NCBI GenBank assembly: GCA_014729315.1 | Contig: WJKD01000486.1 | Location: 1 to 7,185, forward strand | Direction of reading: 5' to 3' | DNA from: Promethearchaeota archaeon | GTDB taxonomy: Archaea; Asgardarchaeota; Lokiarchaeia; Sigynarchaeales; SOKP01 | Length of the DNA: 7,185 nucleotides | In this document: piece by piece, positions 810-7,185 of the stretch | How the letters are laid out: each line of letters opens with the position of its first letter | Position numbering within the stretch: position 1 is the first letter of the stretch | Translations under genes and position numbers: made by a program | Notes under the pieces: generated by a model | Seen by the model: only the letters and a program-made list of their open reading frames with translations | Database searches by the model: none | Told to the model about the DNA's origin: nothing

Positions 810-911
810 TTTTGTGGGATTTGTTTGAGACGGAATTTCGAAATACGGATTATGGAGAGTGGGGGAGAAAAACATGCCCTTATCTGATTAGAACATAATT
901 ATACCCATTTA
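810..911. other. Intergenic junction between the T9SS gene and the cassette region
   Basis: This stretch of about 100 nt lies between the converging stops of the T9SS gene (+) and the AbiJ-like gene (-). Base composition shifts across it from GC-richer to AT-rich. It should contain the attC site of the AbiJ-like cassette, but only a possible first box (887-894) is visible and no matching right arm follows. I see no clear U-tract terminator hairpin. Confidence 0.5.
887..894 (-). other. Possible R'' box of a truncated attC site
   Basis: The minus strand reads GTTCTAAT, 17 nt beyond the AbiJ-like stop codon. If the AbiJ-like gene is a cassette beginning TTAGAAC (1778 downward), the R'' box of its own attC should be GTTCTAAC, so 7 of 8 bases match. 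No inverted arm or closing GTTRRRY box follows, so any attC here has been cut off. An eight-base match alone is weak evidence. Confidence 0.35.
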
Positions 912-1760
912 CTATGTTTCAATTTTTAATTCAGATACCTTGCCAAGTAAATAGTTGATAAATCCAGAGCATGCTACCAGCATAAATTTGGCATCACTAA
1001 ATGAAATATTATTCTCTTCAAGGATCGAATGCCTAATTCCCCCTTCATCACTTGTATAGCCATATAGTGAGCTAAAAGCTTTTTCTAAAGCCGGATGGAT
1101 AGAAGTTCGGTCATTCAATAGTTTCAGCGCAGATCCAAGAGTAGCTTTTTGATTACCGGAGAGTGTACGACAAATATTCTCCACAGCCGAAATTGATTCT
1201 TTTATTGAATTTCGATAATCAGGATTTTTACGATCAGAAAGTAATGATAAAGCCGTATTTAGATGCAGATTAATTCCACTAAGTTTTGAATTAGAAGCTG
1301 TTTCAATTGCTTCGATTTCATGCACATCAGTAATTGGTGTTATTTCATTGTTAACGAAACGATATCCAGAATTCTCCTTTTCTAAAAAAACATTGCACAA
1401 CTCAATAAATGATTTAGTGAATGGACTTACAAACTTTGCTGTAAATTCAATTAGATCATAAACCTCATTCCATTCGCAGGAAAAAAAATACTCACGCACT
1501 TTGCTAACAGCACTTTCAAATCTAGGCAAGTTATCAACAGGTAATTTGAAGTAAGAAAGCCAGTATTTACGCAAAAGATTATTTATATTCTGAGATTCCC
1601 TTGACCAACCGATTCCATATTTTTCGTATGGGCGCCATTTTTCCCAATAGCTGATATGAATTGCTGACCAGAGGCTATTTCTCAATTCTGCATCCATTTC
1701 TTCTAGTTGCAAAGCTTTCGAAATTGGTTTTATCTCTTTTCTTTGTGAAAATAGTGCCAT
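912..1760 (-). CDS. AbiJ-NTD4 family protein (putative abortive-infection / defence protein)
   Basis: This 282-residue protein resembles proteins annotated with the AbiJ N-terminal domain 4. The recognisable features are the opening LFSQRK and LRNSLW (27-31), a charged WEKWRPYEKYG segment (39-49), SGYRFVNNEITPITD (131-145), DRKNPDYRNSIKESISAVE (177-194) and IHPALEKAFSSLYGYTSDEGGIRHSILE (221-248). The helical C-terminal half resembles the HEPN-like half found in this family. I do not see a canonical HEPN Rx4-6H motif. R218 with H222 and the pair R243-H244 are the nearest candidates. AbiJ relatives are linked with abortive infection, but the activity of this protein is inferred. The ATG at 1760 is preceded by AGGA with a 7-nt spacer. 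It starts 18 nt after the attC crossover point, as expected for a promoterless cassette gene, so it may depend on read-through from upstream. Stop TAG at 912-914. Confidence 0.8.
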   Translation of the reverse strand: MALFSQRKEIKPISKALQLEEMDAELRNSLWSAIHISYWEKWRPYEKYGIGWSRESQNINNLLRKYWLSYFKLPVDNLPRFESAVSKVREYFFSCEWNEVYDLIEFTAKFVSPFTKSFIELCNVFLEKENSGYRFVNNEITPITDVHEIEAIETASNSKLSGINLHLNTALSLLSDRKNPDYRNSIKESISAVENICRTLSGNQKATLGSALKLLNDRTSIHPALEKAFSSLYGYTSDEGGIRHSILEENNISFSDAKFMLVACSGFINYLLGKVSELKIET

Positions 1761-1779
1761 AGTTTTTTCCTGTTCTAAC
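1754..1779 (-). promoter_or_regulatory. Cassette start and ribosome binding site of the AbiJ-like gene
   Basis: On the minus strand the attC R' box GTTAGAAC (1779 to 1772) runs directly into AGGAAAAAACT and then ATG at 1760. AGGA is the Shine-Dalgarno element, 7 nt from the start. There is no room for a promoter between the crossover point and the start codon, a usual feature of integron cassettes. Confidence 0.6.
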
Positions 1780-1786
1780 GCTGCGA

Positions 1787-1848
1787 AAACCTGCTTTTAT
1801 CGGTGCGTAGAGAGCAGCGCGAACGAAGCGACGATAAAAGTCAGGTTT
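1787..1848. repeat. Imperfect inverted repeat forming the attC stem
   Basis: The arms at 1787-1802 and 1832-1848 are complementary over 16 bp, with one unpaired T at 1841. They enclose 29 nt. There is no T-tract right after either arm that would make a convincing terminator. Read with the flanking GTTCTAAC (1772-1779) and GT|TAGCC (1857-1858 joined to 2511-2515), the structure is better explained as attC. Confidence 0.85.
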
Positions 1849-2429
1849 ATTGCTTTGTGTGTGCCCGGCATGGTGCGTATATGTTTAGTTAATACGAATA
1901 TACACAAATTATCCAGAGGGTGCAAGTCCCTTATGGGCGAGTTGGCGAGTTCTCCGTTTACTGACGGAAGCCCATTAGTAAGCCGCAAGGGCGTTCCGGG
2001 CGACCGGAAGTCTGAAAGAAGCGGGACTAGTCTGTACGGACGAATTCGCCAAATGGCGGACGTACGAGGCATAGCTTTGTGGGTGAGCAACCACATCTTT
2101 GTGAAGCCCGAAGCCAACAAACTTAGCTATGTAGATGCAGCCGGCATAGACTCAACGGATAAGCACCTTACCCGGGGAGATCTGTCAGATGTCGTGCCAG
2201 CCGTTTACGACTGATTGCCCGACACATGGACGAAATAGTCCATGACAGAAGTCAGCCGAGATCATAGTAGCCCAACGCCCGGATTAATACCTGGGACATG
2301 GTGAAGGATCGAACATTAACCCGTTCCGGATTGATTTGGGATGAACATGGACGAATGGTAGTTTCCAAGTCCTGTTCAAGCCCATTTTAAGAAAGAACAC
2401 AGTCAATACACACATGACTGATGGTTAAT

Positions 2430-2464
2430 GAACCGCCGCATACGAGAACCGTACGTGCGGGGTG
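2430..2464 (+). ncRNA. Group II intron domain V (catalytic hairpin)
   Basis: CCGCA (2436-2440) pairs with TGCGG (2456-2460) and TACG (2441-2444) pairs with CGTA (2450-2453) around an AGAAC loop. A two-base bulge, CG at 2454-2455, lies on the 3' strand, which is the diagnostic feature of domain V. The lower helix is imperfect: the bases before 2436 (AACCG) do not pair fully with GGTG after 2460. A one-base loss there is possible, so catalytic competence is uncertain. Confidence 0.78.
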
Positions 2465-2470
2465 CGAGAG

Positions 2471-2510
2471 GCGCACTCCAGTGGGAAACCGCTGGAGCCG
2501 CCTACTCGAT
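2471..2510 (+). ncRNA. Group II intron domain VI and 3' splice site
   Basis: CTCCAGTGG (2476-2484) pairs with CCGCTGGAG (2489-2497), with one T-G wobble, and is capped by a GAAA tetraloop (2485-2488). The tail CCGCCTACTCGAT ends the intron at 2510. A2504, seven bases from the end, is the likely branch-point adenosine. Confidence 0.75.
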
Positions 2511-5500
2511 TAGCCCAATATTTCATTCATTCGCTCTTGGAAATAGCTTGGGTATTTTTCAATCACCGCCCTGGCTTCGTCCCGATTTTTTTTCAGTACT
2601 TTGACGAGATCCTTTTTTTGAGTCGCCGTCAGGTTCATAGATGCGATGAGATCTTGAGAGATGACCCGGTCTGAAAAACCAAGCTCATAAAGAGCGATGG
2701 CAGTTTCCGTTGGCAGGCCATATTTAAGGCGCTTTTGAAAAAGTTGCAGACGATTGATTGAATCGCCTGTTCCGTCACGCTCCAATATTTCTACAAATTC
2801 ACAAACTGCACTCACAAGAAGAGCACCATCATAGGCAATGCCGCCCTCGCAGATATCAATAATATTCTCGAGTTTGACTTTTCTGGGTCTCTTTCCTTTA
2901 CCAAGCCTACATTTATTCTTGTCGGCAATTAGGAAAAGCTCATGAAATTGAGTCCCAAACATCCACTTCTTTGTAATATCTTTCAGGACATCTTTTTTGT
3001 CGAACTTATTGAAGGCCCTGTTGTGGATATGACCCACTATTAACGGCCAAGTGATATCAAAAAGGTCCTCTCCACTTTGAGCGGCAAGCAGTGTATCTGC
3101 ATTATTTTTTACCCACGTCTCAATATCTATGGCATCGTTAACACCATAGAGTGTTCTACCAAACGCTTTTCTGCGATTAATATCGGTTATGTGGTTTGAA
3201 ATATTGTCAGCCAGTACCATGAACAGCTTTAGTATCTGCTCACGCTTTTCCTCGTCCGCTAAAAAATATGCCAAAGTTTGTTCTGCCAACTCAGCAATGT
3301 CAGTTTCCGAAAGAGCACTCTCACCTATATCCCAGTTTGAAAGAAGAAAGCTCTCGATAGAAGAGAGAATTTGGCTAAAAAATTCGAACTGAGGTGCCAC
3401 TACCTCGACAGTGAAGCCACGCTCTCCATATTCCTTTGCAATCTTGCTAATAACTTCGTTTAGGGAATTCAACCCAATTATATGGGCCTCAGCAAAAGAC
3501 AGAATATCCCATGTCAACACATGATTTCTTTTGTCATTTGCATTGTTTCGATCGTTCCGAATATTCATCGGGATCAGTTGAAAGAGACTGCTGGCACATT
3601 CTTCTGAGTTTTTAGGATCAAGCAGTTCTTTAACTATATCCCATCGCCAGCCGTCCTTTTGGGTACGTCGCTTATCATACACAATTGGGTCGGCAAACAG
3701 TATGCTACCTTCGGTATGCATTCCAGCTCGACCAGCCCGACCAATGAGATTGTGGAAGTCACGAACTTTGATTCTTTCTAACCCCTGATACACGCTGGTC
3801 ACAATAAGATATCGAATGGGAAGGTTTACGCCTTGTGCTAATGTTGATGTGCATACAACAAACCTCACAAGATTTTCACGCATAGCATGTTCCACTGAAA
3901 GACGGATACCGTGTGGTGTATTGCCATGATGAGAAAATATGCCATACTTGGCACTCATTGAAGCTGAGGCTGAATTACCAAGGTTTTCTACATGGAGATA
4001 ATGAAGCCGCTCAATCTCTTTCAGGTCTGAAAACTCTTGTGGCAGTGGAAATGGAATACCACGTTGAATGAAATCAACCGCTTTTTCACAGATGCTTGCA
4101 GCAGTTGATTTTTTCCCGCAGAAAATAGCAATGCTTCCGTTGCTAGATAGTTTAATTCCAAGATAAAGGGCAATTGCTTGACCGTCTTTCTTCTCTGGAA
4201 AAAACCGATCCTTTTGCTCTCTACCTCTTCTGCCAAGGTTGAATCGCTCGATTACCCTTGGAACGAAAAATTCATTTTGTTCAGCGTCACGGCTGTCAAC
4301 GTACTCAATTCTTCCCAATTGATCGAGCCAGCTTGCAAATCCGACAGATCTGAAAGTTGGAATCAGTGATGTCCCTTCGACGACATTGGAGTCACCATTC
4401 AGCCATTCACCGACAGACTCAGCATTACTAATGACAGCAGAGATCAGCACTTTCTGGGCATCGTCGGGAATCATTGAAAGTAACGAAGTCAAGAGCAGCT
4501 CATAAGTGATCCCACGAGTGCCGCTATCAAACTGGTGACCTTCATCAAAGACCAGCATTCCGACATGAATCGCTAACTCCGGGGTGTGCCGAAGGACGTA
4601 GAGTAACTTTTCAGGAGTTACAACAAGAATCTGCTGGTGCCCCAATAATTCAGCAATTTCGAAATCGGCCTGAAGCGCATCAGATAATTCATCAACTTTA
4701 GTAGATTCATTGTGAAATGCATTAACGAGACTGTTTTTGATCTCATGGCAAAGTGCCCTAAAAGGAGCGATGATGATAGCCAGAGAAACCCGATCTGCAA
4801 GGAATGCGCTTCGAAGTATCAGCTCAGTTGCCTTCGTTTTACCTGCACTTGTAGGCATTTGAACAATTGCTGATTCACCTTTGAGAACACCAGCCTTACC
4901 CAAGAGGTGTTGTGCAGGCCAGAGTTCTTTGATAAACGACTCTTTTTGCAACGCATAAAGCCATTTATCATGAGGCTGTTCCGAATATAAAGGCAGAGCT
5001 TTCCAAGTGGAGTTTTCGAGCTTTCTTTTCAAAACAGATGAAATCATATCTCCAAAAAGGAGCTCCCGTGGTGTGCCGAAGTCATAGACAGTGTTTCTCA
5101 GCTTTGCAGCTAAATCAATGAGGTTATCTTCGCCTGTTCCGTTCTCGAAAAACTGAAGGAGCCAATGAGAAATGCCATCGATTGATTCGCCAAATGGCCC
5201 CGCAGAGCCTTCAAAATTGGTTTCAAGGTCGGCTTGCAACAACCAGAGCAAAAGGTCTTCCAGACCAGCGCAATCCAGATCCGGACAGTCGCCATCAATG
5301 CGCTTTGCCAATACCGATGCACTTCCGGGAAGATCACACAAGTAATACGATGCAGAGCCGAGAAGTATAAGATACGGATCAAGAACCTCTTTCAGCCCTG
5401 ACTGAAGAAAGGAATCGAAAAAACGGGCAGAGAACAGCAAGTTGGTTCTCAGCTCCGAGACAGAGTCAGGCTCTGACTCTCCCCGGTTAATAGCAGCGGC

Positions 5501-5653
5501 AAGATCCCCCAAAAGGGCAATTGAGACGGTGAAAAGTTTGGCCGGATCTTGTTTAATTTTTATGTGGTGCTCTTCTGGAACACCATACTCAATCATTTTG
5601 GCCTTTGACCGAGTAACACCCAATAGCAACTGGGATTTCTGTTCAGGCCTCAT
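2510..5653 (-). CDS. hamB: HamB, Hachiman anti-phage superfamily 2 helicase
   Basis: From the ATG at 5653 the protein has 1047 residues. Helicase motifs appear in order: Walker A MPTSAGKT (266-273), Ia APFRAL (296-301), Ib TPEKL (346-350), Walker B DEGH (370-373), III SAVIS (405-409), IV AIFCGKK (509-515), V CTSTLAQGVNLP (601-612) and VI HNLIGRAGRAG (634-644). About 240 residues precede the ATPase and about 400 follow it, with no motif I can name. Alone it would be a generic DEAD/DEAH (Ski2-like) helicase. Next to a DUF1837 gene it is the helicase of Hachiman, which in studied systems senses abnormal or single-stranded DNA and controls the HamA nuclease. The start is set by GGAGG at 5665-5661; a longer frame from TTG at 5683 lacks this support. 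It overlaps hamA by 11 nt. The stop TAA (2512-2510) lies in the attC R'' box, and its last base is supplied by the intron end. Confidence 0.92.
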   Translation of the reverse strand: MRPEQKSQLLLGVTRSKAKMIEYGVPEEHHIKIKQDPAKLFTVSIALLGDLAAAINRGESEPDSVSELRTNLLFSARFFDSFLQSGLKEVLDPYLILLGSASYYLCDLPGSASVLAKRIDGDCPDLDCAGLEDLLLWLLQADLETNFEGSAGPFGESIDGISHWLLQFFENGTGEDNLIDLAAKLRNTVYDFGTPRELLFGDMISSVLKRKLENSTWKALPLYSEQPHDKWLYALQKESFIKELWPAQHLLGKAGVLKGESAIVQMPTSAGKTKATELILRSAFLADRVSLAIIIAPFRALCHEIKNSLVNAFHNESTKVDELSDALQADFEIAELLGHQQILVVTPEKLLYVLRHTPELAIHVGMLVFDEGHQFDSGTRGITYELLLTSLLSMIPDDAQKVLISAVISNAESVGEWLNGDSNVVEGTSLIPTFRSVGFASWLDQLGRIEYVDSRDAEQNEFFVPRVIERFNLGRRGREQKDRFFPEKKDGQAIALYLGIKLSSNGSIAIFCGKKSTAASICEKAVDFIQRGIPFPLPQEFSDLKEIERLHYLHVENLGNSASASMSAKYGIFSHHGNTPHGIRLSVEHAMRENLVRFVVCTSTLAQGVNLPIRYLIVTSVYQGLERIKVRDFHNLIGRAGRAGMHTEGSILFADPIVYDKRRTQKDGWRWDIVKELLDPKNSEECASSLFQLIPMNIRNDRNNANDKRNHVLTWDILSFAEAHIIGLNSLNEVISKIAKEYGERGFTVEVVAPQFEFFSQILSSIESFLLSNWDIGESALSETDIAELAEQTLAYFLADEEKREQILKLFMVLADNISNHITDINRRKAFGRTLYGVNDAIDIETWVKNNADTLLAAQSGEDLFDITWPLIVGHIHNRAFNKFDKKDVLKDITKKWMFGTQFHELFLIADKNKCRLGKGKRPRKVKLENIIDICEGGIAYDGALLVSAVCEFVEILERDGTGDSINRLQLFQKRLKYGLPTETAIALYELGFSDRVISQDLIASMNLTATQKKDLVKVLKKNRDEARAVIEKYPSYFQERMNEILG

Positions 5654-6491
5654 CCGCAGCCCTCCTATAAAGTTCGTGGACAAGCTCCATCATACCGGGA
5701 CCCTTGATAACTAAGAGAACCAGATTATCGCCGTTTGGATGAGGAAAGAATATCTTGGATTTTGCGGATTTGGGGATTTTACTACAGTCTGATAAAGCCA
5801 ATTCATCAGCATCAAAACACTCATCAGAAATGATTGCCGCCGCGCCGTAAGTCTCCTTGTAGGGAAAATCAACGGGACTCTGGAATCGCTCAATTTTTTG
5901 AGCCTGTTCGATATCCCTTCTTTCAAATAGTTTTTGTTTGATGAAATTCAACGACTCATCTATTCGAATGTGGTCCTTGGCCGAATGATTGATAGCATGC
6001 TGTAGACGGTTGATCTTAGAGTTGGAAAACTTTGTCTTGGACTCAAAAACAAACAGAACATCCTTGGCCGAGGCTTTGCCGTCTTTTTTATTAAATTGAA
6101 ATCCGATTACATCGCTACCTTTTGGAGATTCATCCCGAACAACTTTCGATGACCATCGCACTCTGGGAACCCAATATCCGAGAAGCCATTGGAGATAATC
6201 GGAAACAAGAATCTCCCCAAAGTCTCCTGCTCGGATGCCCGGACCGAGTTTTGTTGATTTACTCGGAAATTTTATATTAGTCAGGTAATCTGATCTTGTG
6301 CGTTTACCTCGGAGAAAATCAATGTCGGTATCCAGACAATAGTGATTTCGGAAATGCTTTGCCCAAGCTGAGAGTATGGCATCATCTTCCTCATGGCAGA
6401 AATTCCATACCTCGACATCTTTACCATCTGCGGTTTTCAACCGTTCGCCAGTATCAACAAACCATTTAGTGTGTTCCGAAGTCCAAGGCAT
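5643..6491 (-). CDS. hamA: HamA, DUF1837 PD-(D/E)xK nuclease of Hachiman
   Basis: This 282-residue protein is of typical HamA size. The nuclease signature is readable: GDFGEILVSDYL with E93, GSDVIGF with D127, and FVFESKTKF with E150-x-K152. Together these give the acidic-acidic-ExK pattern of PD-(D/E)xK enzymes, so the active site looks intact. In studied Hachiman systems HamA is a DNA-cutting effector held by the HamB helicase and released when HamB meets damaged or phage DNA, leading to DNA loss and death of the infected cell. That mechanism is known for relatives and inferred here. The ATG at 6491 is preceded by AAGGA with a spacer of about 6 nt. The gene overlaps hamB by 11 nt, so the two are almost certainly co-translated. 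Its start is 29 nt inside the cassette boundary at 6520. Confidence 0.92.
   Translation of the reverse strand: MPWTSEHTKWFVDTGERLKTADGKDVEVWNFCHEEDDAILSAWAKHFRNHYCLDTDIDFLRGKRTRSDYLTNIKFPSKSTKLGPGIRAGDFGEILVSDYLQWLLGYWVPRVRWSSKVVRDESPKGSDVIGFQFNKKDGKASAKDVLFVFESKTKFSNSKINRLQHAINHSAKDHIRIDESLNFIKQKLFERRDIEQAQKIERFQSPVDFPYKETYGAAAIISDECFDADELALSDCSKIPKSAKSKIFFPHPNGDNLVLLVIKGPGMMELVHELYRRAADEA
5654..5665 (-). promoter_or_regulatory. Ribosome binding site of hamB, inside hamA
   Basis: The minus strand reads GGAGG (5665-5661), a 7-nt spacer GCTGCGG, then ATG at 5653. This near-ideal Shine-Dalgarno decides the start in favour of 5653 over the TTG at 5683. It lies within the last codons of hamA, which implies translational coupling. 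Confidence 0.8.
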
Positions 6492-6807
6492 TCCAATTCC
6501 TTTTTATCATGTAGAGCTAACAAGTTATCGTCCAGTTCTGTATAACATGAATTCTCAATTTAAATAATATTTCATAAAGTCAAAAAAAATTAATGTTTTG
6601 AAGATATTTTTTTGAATGTTATCTGCAGAAATGCGAACTGCTTTTCGTTGCAATTTGAATGCTATACTGAAAGATAATTCCCCGGATATTTTAATAAAAA
6701 TCATCTGCATGATAGCAATTTGCTGTTAATAAAAAGAAAGAGCGATAAAAAATAATGAACTGTTACAGGAAAGATGAATGTATTAAATATAATAAACAGA
6801 TCACGAA
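6492..6807. other. AT-rich non-coding stretch upstream of hamA
   Basis: About 316 nt without a supportable gene on either strand. It contains the hamA ribosome binding site, the cassette core box at 6515-6521, and runs of A and T (for example around 6581-6590 and 6604-6614). A weak minus-strand promoter is possible: TTGACT (6583-6578) with TAAATT (6562-6557) at a short 15-nt spacing. A full attC or attI site should lie just upstream of the core box. I can only find a weak 6-bp inverted pair (6533-6538 with 6635-6640), which is not enough to call one. No integrase gene is present. Confidence 0.5.
6515..6521 (-). other. Recombination core box GTTAGCT at the 5' end of the hamAB cassette
   Basis: The minus strand reads G then TTAGCT, with the expected integrase crossover between 6521 and 6520. 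The GCTAAC complement of this box is the same six bases found in the R'' box of the attC downstream of hamB. This is expected because the two ends were joined in the circular cassette. The cassette would span 6520 to 1779: 4742 bp with the intron, 4090 bp without it. Confidence 0.6.
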
Positions 6808-7137
6808 ATGTCAACAAAAATTATGGCAAGTTACAATAATTTCACTATAGAAGCGTCCCATGCGAAAAGCACAATTTTCCGGCTGCGCCAGAATTATCCA
6901 AATCCATTCTCCAAATCCGGCAGGCAGGGGACAGCAATCACAAAAATCCGCTTCGATCTCAGCCGGACTGTTGATGTTGTGCTGAAAGTCTATAATGTAC
7001 TGGGACAGGAAATATCAACCCTGGCGCAGGGAAAATATCAACCGGGACGGCATGAAATCGGATTCGAGGCAACGAATCTGCTGGCGGATGTTTATCCGTA
7101 TGTGCTGCGAATCGGAGAGCGAGTGTTGACGAAGTAG
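6808..7137 (+). CDS. Orphan T9SS type A sorting-domain fragment, probably a gene remnant
   Basis: This is a 109-codon frame from ATG 6808 to TAG 7135. About 18 residues without similarity to anything recognised are followed by a T9SS sorting domain from about residue 19, nearly identical to that of the gene at the left edge. There is no signal peptide, no passenger domain and no convincing ribosome binding site. An in-frame TAA lies at 6793. A stop directly after VLTK removes the usual terminal KMLxVx. Without a signal sequence it could not reach the T9SS. It is most likely the broken tail of a duplicated gene, though it has kept its frame without indels and its differences are largely third-position, so decay is recent or the domain was under selection until recently. 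Confidence 0.6.
   Translation: MSTKIMASYNNFTIEASHAKSTIFRLRQNYPNPFSKSGRQGTAITKIRFDLSRTVDVVLKVYNVLGQEISTLAQGKYQPGRHEIGFEATNLLADVYPYVLRIGERVLTK
6862..7134 (+). repeat. Direct repeat copy 2: T9SS sorting-domain DNA
   Basis: Ungapped counterpart of 516-788, about 90% identical by hand count. The match ends exactly where this copy acquires its stop (TAG at 7135 against AAG at 789-791 in copy 1), so only the last few codons of the domain are missing. Confidence 0.88.
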
Positions 7138-7185
7138 CTTATTAGAACTCACTTTGTTGTAGTTTCTTATATTCAAAATTATCAA

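Follow-up and report, generated by a model that had tools for sequence, protein, structure and literature searches.

A group IIC-like intron very probably divides the attC site of a two-gene Hachiman integron cassette

Group IIC introns insert behind the attC hairpin of integron cassettes at the target TTGT/T, on the bottom strand and against the direction of the cassette genes, and the ends of these IIC-attC introns follow the consensus 5' GUGYG and 3' AY (PMC7923331). Bacterial group II introns without an open reading frame (ORF) are rare, are nearly always found in genomes with related, potential helper introns (PMC4424553) and are counted as a type (PMC8919778). Integrons also store anti-phage systems, in small and streamlined cassettes from which larger systems of more than two genes are absent (PMC12409362). 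Here we describe a stretch of 7,185 nucleotides (contig WJKD01000486.1 of assembly GCA_014729315.1, deposited as Promethearchaeota archaeon; the whole stretch is called the window below) in which the Hachiman defence genes hamA and hamB end at an integron attC site that, very probably, has been split by a group IIC intron of the attC-seeking sort.

The window intron shares target, position and orientation with the group IIC-attC introns S.ma.I2 and its relatives as described in PMC7923331, and its ribozyme matches the same Rfam D1-D4 model as copies in our set that carry an intron-encoded protein (IEP) and lie in attC-like sites. Unlike these introns, the window copy has no IEP, its domain V is damaged, its host may lie near candidate division KSB1, and the cassette it interrupts is a full Hachiman pair. 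The lack of a reverse transcriptase is shared with the ORF-less bacterial group II introns. As in the anti-phage integron cassettes of PMC12409362, defence genes are associated with attC; unlike those small cassettes, hamAB has two genes and yet spans about 4.1 kb. Group IIB introns of hypersaline integrons (UHB.I2, H.ha.F1 and H.ha.F2; PMC7923331) also lie beside attC, but they belong to another class, UHB.I2 is oriented with the cassettes and the H.ha fragments are 5'-truncated. Intron insertion in attC has thus already been described, and the window is a further case; its interest lies in a combination of features, namely that the defence cassette is large, carries two genes and occurs in distant bacteria, that an intron hides an attC, and that the R'' box (one of the two attC boxes, R'' and R') is broken alike in three hamAB cassettes. 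Among the titles on Hachiman together with integron, cassette and defence that we saw, none is on such a cassette, although a Hachiman cassette may already be in print; the word Hachiman is absent from the available text of two papers on integrons and phage defence, one of them PMC12409362.

The features that carry this reading are as follows.

1773 to 1779, minus strand: attC R' box GTTAGAA, with the recombination point between G and TT; the next cassette begins here.
1780 to 1858, minus strand: arms and loop of the attC, identified by fold and scores, the bulk of the site on one side of the intron; the last two bases, 1857-1858, complete R''.
1859 to 2510, plus strand: group IIC-like intron of 652 nt that lacks a reverse-transcriptase ORF and runs antisense to the defence genes, identified by Rfam and by DNA relatives.
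2430 to 2463, plus strand: domain V of the intron, with one conserved base missing in its 3' strand, from an alignment of 20 copies.
2466 to 2510, plus strand: domain VI and the 3' end of the intron, CCTACTCGAT, from the same alignment and the fold.
2511 to 2515, minus strand: start of the attC R'' box, GGCTA, overlapping the hamB stop codon; the remaining AC lies across the intron at 1857-1858.
2510 to 5683, minus strand: hamB, Hachiman helicase (PADLOC HamB, 1385.2 bits).
5643 to 6491, minus strand: hamA, Hachiman, DUF1837 (PADLOC HamA, 369.8 bits; Pfam PF08878).
6515 to 6521, minus strand: GTTAGCT, left boundary of the hamAB cassette, 30 bases upstream of hamA; five other loci (L004, L007, L017, L019 and L021, our own locus numbers) have such a box in a similar place.

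A preliminary description of this DNA, made from the letters alone, had claimed that removal of the intron, joining 1858 to 2511, restores a complete attC. All letters and coordinates of this junction, which reads TTTGT/TAGCCC, were verified, and the joined sequence does contain a minus-strand site of 91 nt that runs from GGCTAAC to GTTAGAA, with one extrahelical base in its left arm. The R'' box GGCTAAC is made up, on the minus strand, of 2515-2511 and 1858-1857. The hamB stop codon TAA has its first two bases in the flank and its third in the intron (base 2510), and the empty site reads TAA too. Both strands of the joined site fold into a hairpin, which has 23 near-symmetric pairs and the one unpaired base in the left arm; with DNA parameters the bottom (plus) strand is the more stable, at -20.3 versus -17.2 kcal/mol. 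The textbook consensus of the attC boxes is RYYYAAC/GTTRRRY, from which the joined site departs by two letters, the second of R'' being G and the seventh of R' being A.

As a substitute for the attC model of IntegronFinder we used a home-made scorer of boxes and hairpin, trained on 15 attC sites. These were picked, by structure and array sense, among candidates from six of 12 stretches that surround integron integrase genes, the genomes having hamB relatives as well. The scorer calls the joined site with S = 34.2, within the 25.3 to 57.5 that the training sites reach in leave-one-out scoring. The next best listed place in the joined window, on either strand, scores 15.4, which leaves the joined attC as the sole strong candidate, and with the intron in place the scorer does not find it. 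Its S2 of 31.9 is equalled or exceeded by two of 3529 position-matched TGT/T[AG] junctions in hamB loci, and its 5'-exon half alone is reached by 23 of 1500 controls. Scanned plainly, 1.97 Mb of background (counting both strands) contain nine sites with more than 34.2, which would place the joined attC tenth; by eye some of the nine are plausible attC sites (L019 at 2964-3049, L040, L001, L079) and others look like chance. An Rfam scan of the window matched no attC family. Since the attC becomes visible after removal of the intron and not before, cassettes split by introns are likely under-counted by standard integron searches.

The other support for the attC comes from relatives without the intron. 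We collected 64 hamB loci (61 in genomes, three in viral contigs), of which 58 have a readable 5' flank of hamA and 58 a readable 3' end of hamB. The junction predicted for the window is kept at the hamB stop codon of two intron-free loci, as GGGCTAACAAATCG in L019 and GGTCTAACAAATCG in L021. When the region behind the hamB stop was scanned in the 58 loci, L021 came first (29.5) and L019 second (24.3), followed at a distance by 15.2. L021 has a complete attC of 72 nt and no intron. L019 has half an attC, and the right end chosen by the scan is not credible; the reading frame that follows resembles, by eye, what we take to be an IS3-type orfA. L019 also has an attC (S 39.9) at 2964-3049, directly upstream of hamA at about 3074. 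By eye, the hamB end of L007 is like a decayed attC. Scorer and relatives together support the attC reading of the intron-free site. The two checks on which the preliminary description could have failed, an attC call on the joined sequence and the junction in intron-free loci, thus both came out in its favour, the former by way of the substitute scorer.

Class C introns often insert behind transcription terminators, and attC sites make up a smaller fraction of the group IIC targets than terminator motifs do (PMC4424553). An exon hairpin does lie directly upstream of the window intron, which could thus have entered behind the hamB terminator, the attC likeness being incidental. We regard this as very improbable: no run of T follows the hairpin, the 5' exon ends in GCTTTGT, and of the two terminator-like sites that a scanner found in 1700-2560, which start at 1856 and at 2078, neither begins at the exon hairpin. 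Insertion at a terminator would also leave unaccounted for the AAC/GTT boxes, the box at the cassette start and the attC of the intron-free L021 and L019.

An attC at the hamB end agrees with the far end of the pair, and hamAB is very probably a two-gene integron cassette, about 4.1 kb long. A start box GTTAGNY lies 31-34 bases before hamA in five of the 58 readable loci (the five named above); as a control, GTTAGNY occurs in 132 of 36989 stretches of 25 nt. In four of these five the hamB stop lies in GGC-TAA or GTC-TAA, with the stop codon within R'', and the fifth, L017, is cut off by the contig end; such a hamB stop also occurs in L042, which has no start box. The start box is complementary to the R'' of its own locus in 8 of 8 letters in L019 and L021 (in L021 the pair is GGTCTAAC and GTTAGACC), in 7 of 7 visible letters in L004, in 7 of 8 in the window and in 6 of 8 in L007, which fits both having once formed one circular attC. 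In a tree of 32 HamB sequences, several nodes of which are poorly supported, the cassette loci lie apart among non-cassette forms; the cassette state was therefore probably gained or lost more than once. Integron integrases above the family cut-off were found in 10 of 28 genomes with hamB relatives versus none of 14 control genomes (28 of 61 genome loci were searched; matches below the cut-off occur in all 28 and all 14 and are uninformative). Together these results point to a complete two-gene Hachiman system that travels as an integron cassette between distant bacteria. A sign of horizontal transfer is seen in HamB of L003-L028, which shows about 65-89% identity over the matched parts across several bacterial phyla.

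The survey can also be turned around. Fifty-three of the 58 readable relatives lack the start box, and the two loci nearest to the window by identity, L008 (89% over a part) and L003 (83%), have no such boxes at their hamB end, as would be expected had hamAB never been a cassette, the R-like boxes being chance and the hairpin unrelated. This is extremely improbable in our judgement, as boxes at both ends occur together in four loci that lie apart in the HamB tree, and their complementarity changes in step, the L021 pair being an example.

The intron itself is recognized by two Rfam models above their cut-offs, group-II-D1D4-3 (RF02001; 60.8 bits at 1994-2164) and D1D4-1 (RF01998; 38.3 bits at 2212-2309). 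Its first base had been placed at 1859 in preference to 1857, and this placement stands because the relatives L103 and L121 begin with GTGTGCCC without a preceding GT. With GTGTG at 1859 and CGAT at 2510 the ends fit the GUGYG and AY consensus, and the insertion point, TTTGT/TAG with attC on both sides, fits the TTGT/T target on the attC bottom strand. The intron lies on the plus strand, opposite to hamAB and to the AbiJ gene that follows. At the place expected from the Rfam alignment for exon-binding site 1 (EBS1), only three complementary bases (ACA) were seen by eye, and we claim no base-paired EBS1. A tblastn search with two IEPs gave no remnant to speak of in the window intron, nor in L103, L111, L119 and L130, and found IEP remnants in the relatives L117 and L128. 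Domains V and VI were aligned in 20 copies, some of them near-duplicates from one genome (L108 and L040 were missed by the pattern used). The gap in domain V occurs in the window copy alone and the base is kept in the 19 others; the CGC letters are present, the missing base lying in the opposite strand, and the domain V model RF00029 gives no match in the window even at E 10. With its reverse transcriptase absent and one base of domain V missing, the window intron is most likely a fossil, unable to splice or move by itself.

In IIC-attC introns an outward-facing promoter can drive the cassettes downstream (PMC8876359), and the intron might likewise still be active or useful, as a promoter for the AbiJ cassette or by splicing from an antisense transcript. 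The damaged domain V speaks against this, and no sigma-70-like promoter was found on either strand of 1700-2560, where shuffled sequences gave an expectation of 1.0; the latter is weak evidence, as the consensus may not be that of the host. Continued activity is, in our view, decidedly unlikely.

The split of the attC by an attC-seeking IIC intron would have come about as follows. The intron would have reverse-spliced into the folded, single-stranded bottom strand of the attC, directly behind the hairpin at TTTGT/T and opposite in direction to the cassette genes, and the insertion would have parted most of R'' from the rest of the site. It may have been helped in trans, or its protein gene may have been lost later; splicing of the remaining copy would have been lost, and the divided site would have lost its attC activity. 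If so, the cassette is probably held in place by the divided attC, at which it would no longer recombine, and the window offers a concrete natural example of a mobile defence cassette that an intron may have fixed.

Introns were also found at corresponding places in other hamAB loci. In Desulfobacter vibrioformis (L004) a different intron, in the same direction, breaks the hamAB R'' at the same letter as in the window. The L004 contig ends within this intron, leaving R'' and the start box visible, and the last 103 bases of the intron have nine matches in the genome, one of which, at a contig start, is evidently L004 itself. Another Desulfobacter copy (L146) is IEP-bearing, with an open reverse-transcriptase frame, and lies behind an attC-like arm (TTTTGT/GTGTG) that by eye is very like an attC in the integrase-adjacent stretch of the same genome. 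Ectothiorhodospira haloalkaliphila (L040) holds a more distant hamAB with an intron at the corresponding hamB-side place, whose reconstructed empty site scores 29.0, reached by four of 3529 controls, and with a further intron on the hamA side of the cassette. Group II introns lie in three places of L040 (794-960, 6802-6968 and 12937-13366), which include both sides of hamAB. Vibrio sp. Of7-15 (L038), an intron-free comparison for L040, has an uninterrupted GTGTAACAAAGCGCC at this place.

Empty sites were reconstructed for nine introns with both ends readable, the window and eight others (left out were L103 and L121, which have no readable 3' end, and L105, L107 and L110), and four of them are reached by at most four of the 3529 controls. 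The 5' exon could be scored for 23 introns, 10 of which fall in the top 5% of controls. This set holds 12 of the 14 RF02001 matches (L169 and L175 show no intron start) and 10 relatives or earlier loci (without L105 and L110); in it, the L146 intron appears as L168, and the pair that adjoins hamAB in L040 as L171 and L177. DNA relatives of the window intron occur in 18 of 395 genomes sampled within the phylum to which an Ignavibacteriaceae genome belongs, and in two of 28 genomes with hamB relatives. The 5' exon of the closest one, in genome G114, is by eye like the attC arm of L021; its half-site score is unremarkable (308 of 1500 controls). An intron reverse transcriptase has a match in 15 of 21 genomes searched, six of them above the cut-off; none was found in G114, G348 and G229, which have reduced copies, and a weak one in G209, in assemblies that may be incomplete. 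IIC introns without a detected reverse-transcriptase remnant were also seen in L103, where domain V is decayed, L111 (591 nt) and L130 (617 nt), all three in genomes from the phylum of an Ignavibacteriaceae genome; the last two sit at attC-like sites.

Several results weigh against a split attC at the end of an integron cassette. The 7185-base window holds no integrase gene and no second whole attC, and the scorer found no attC upstream of hamA in it. No clear attC lies behind the AbiJ relatives, the best of three scored (L154) reaching 12.4. The RF02001 score of the window intron is low, at 60.8 bits in a range of 42.7 to 138.5 for the other RF02001 matches, and the L004 intron end, with 19.2 bits, stays under the Rfam cut-off of 40. 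L038 lacks a GTT box at the far end, and the scan behind the hamB stop does not single it out. The empty sites of L001, L068, L119, L117 and L128 are unremarkable (48 to 365 of 3529 controls), and 13 of the 23 scored 5' exons lie outside the top 5%, one of them (L168) having been read from a wrong start.

At the hamB end of seven hamAB loci an attC, whole or in remnants, could be read by eye; three of these loci (the window, L004 and L040) have an intron there and four (L007, L019, L021 and L038) have none. No group II intron above the Rfam cut-off was found in 11 of the 12 integrase-adjacent stretches (138,864 bases with the 15 training attC sites; L100 was omitted for its length). Three of seven against none is an unfair test, because the training attC sites were chosen whole and the seven loci were picked by eye. 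That IIC introns repeatedly strike the attC of Hachiman cassettes and so fix large defence cassettes in the chromosome seems unlikely; were it true, a cassette that was mobile would become a resident defence locus through the intron.

Beyond the split attC the window contains two further features on the side of the next cassette.

912 to 1760, minus strand: AbiJ_NTD4 gene (PADLOC candidate PDC-S32; PADLOC and Pfam), the gene of the next cassette, preceded by GTTAGAAC.
888 to 894, minus strand: GTTCTAA 3' of the AbiJ stop, a weak candidate for an R'' remnant of the AbiJ cassette (chance expectation about 0.013 per 60 nt).

Relatives of the AbiJ gene were found in five loci and are 38-44% identical. 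GTTCTAA recurs on the minus strand at 7142-7148, just behind the second of the flanking genes described below, which may be chance. A second intron behind AbiJ was considered for the intron-like end CTTATCTGAT at 878-887 and rejected, there being no domain V by eye and no Rfam match at that place.

The defence cassettes are flanked, within the window, by two plus-strand genes with type IX secretion tails, 'type IX' being taken from the names of relatives. A direct repeat of 288 bp (504-791 and 6849-7136, 89% identical) codes for the secretion tails and brackets the defence cassettes; the second copy has an open frame of just 109 aa, in which the front part of such a gene is missing. Among the best 120 of 937 relatives of the first flanking gene, the top one is labelled candidate division KSB1 (57% identity), and the other named ones are Ignavibacteria, Bacteroidetes and one Acidobacteriota. 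Judged from these relatives, the host of the window is probably a bacterium from among these groups, perhaps near candidate division KSB1.

A plasmid collection gave no close copy of the window intron, the best match, in Adhaeribacter, being 67.7% identical over half of it, and the listed E. coli plasmid matches cover its last 81 bases only. The intron-end pattern occurs in two loci in viral contigs. On the E. coli plasmid pLHM10-1 (L002, 4001-4081), tet(X4) ends about 20 bases from the end of a related IIC intron, represented by domains V and VI.

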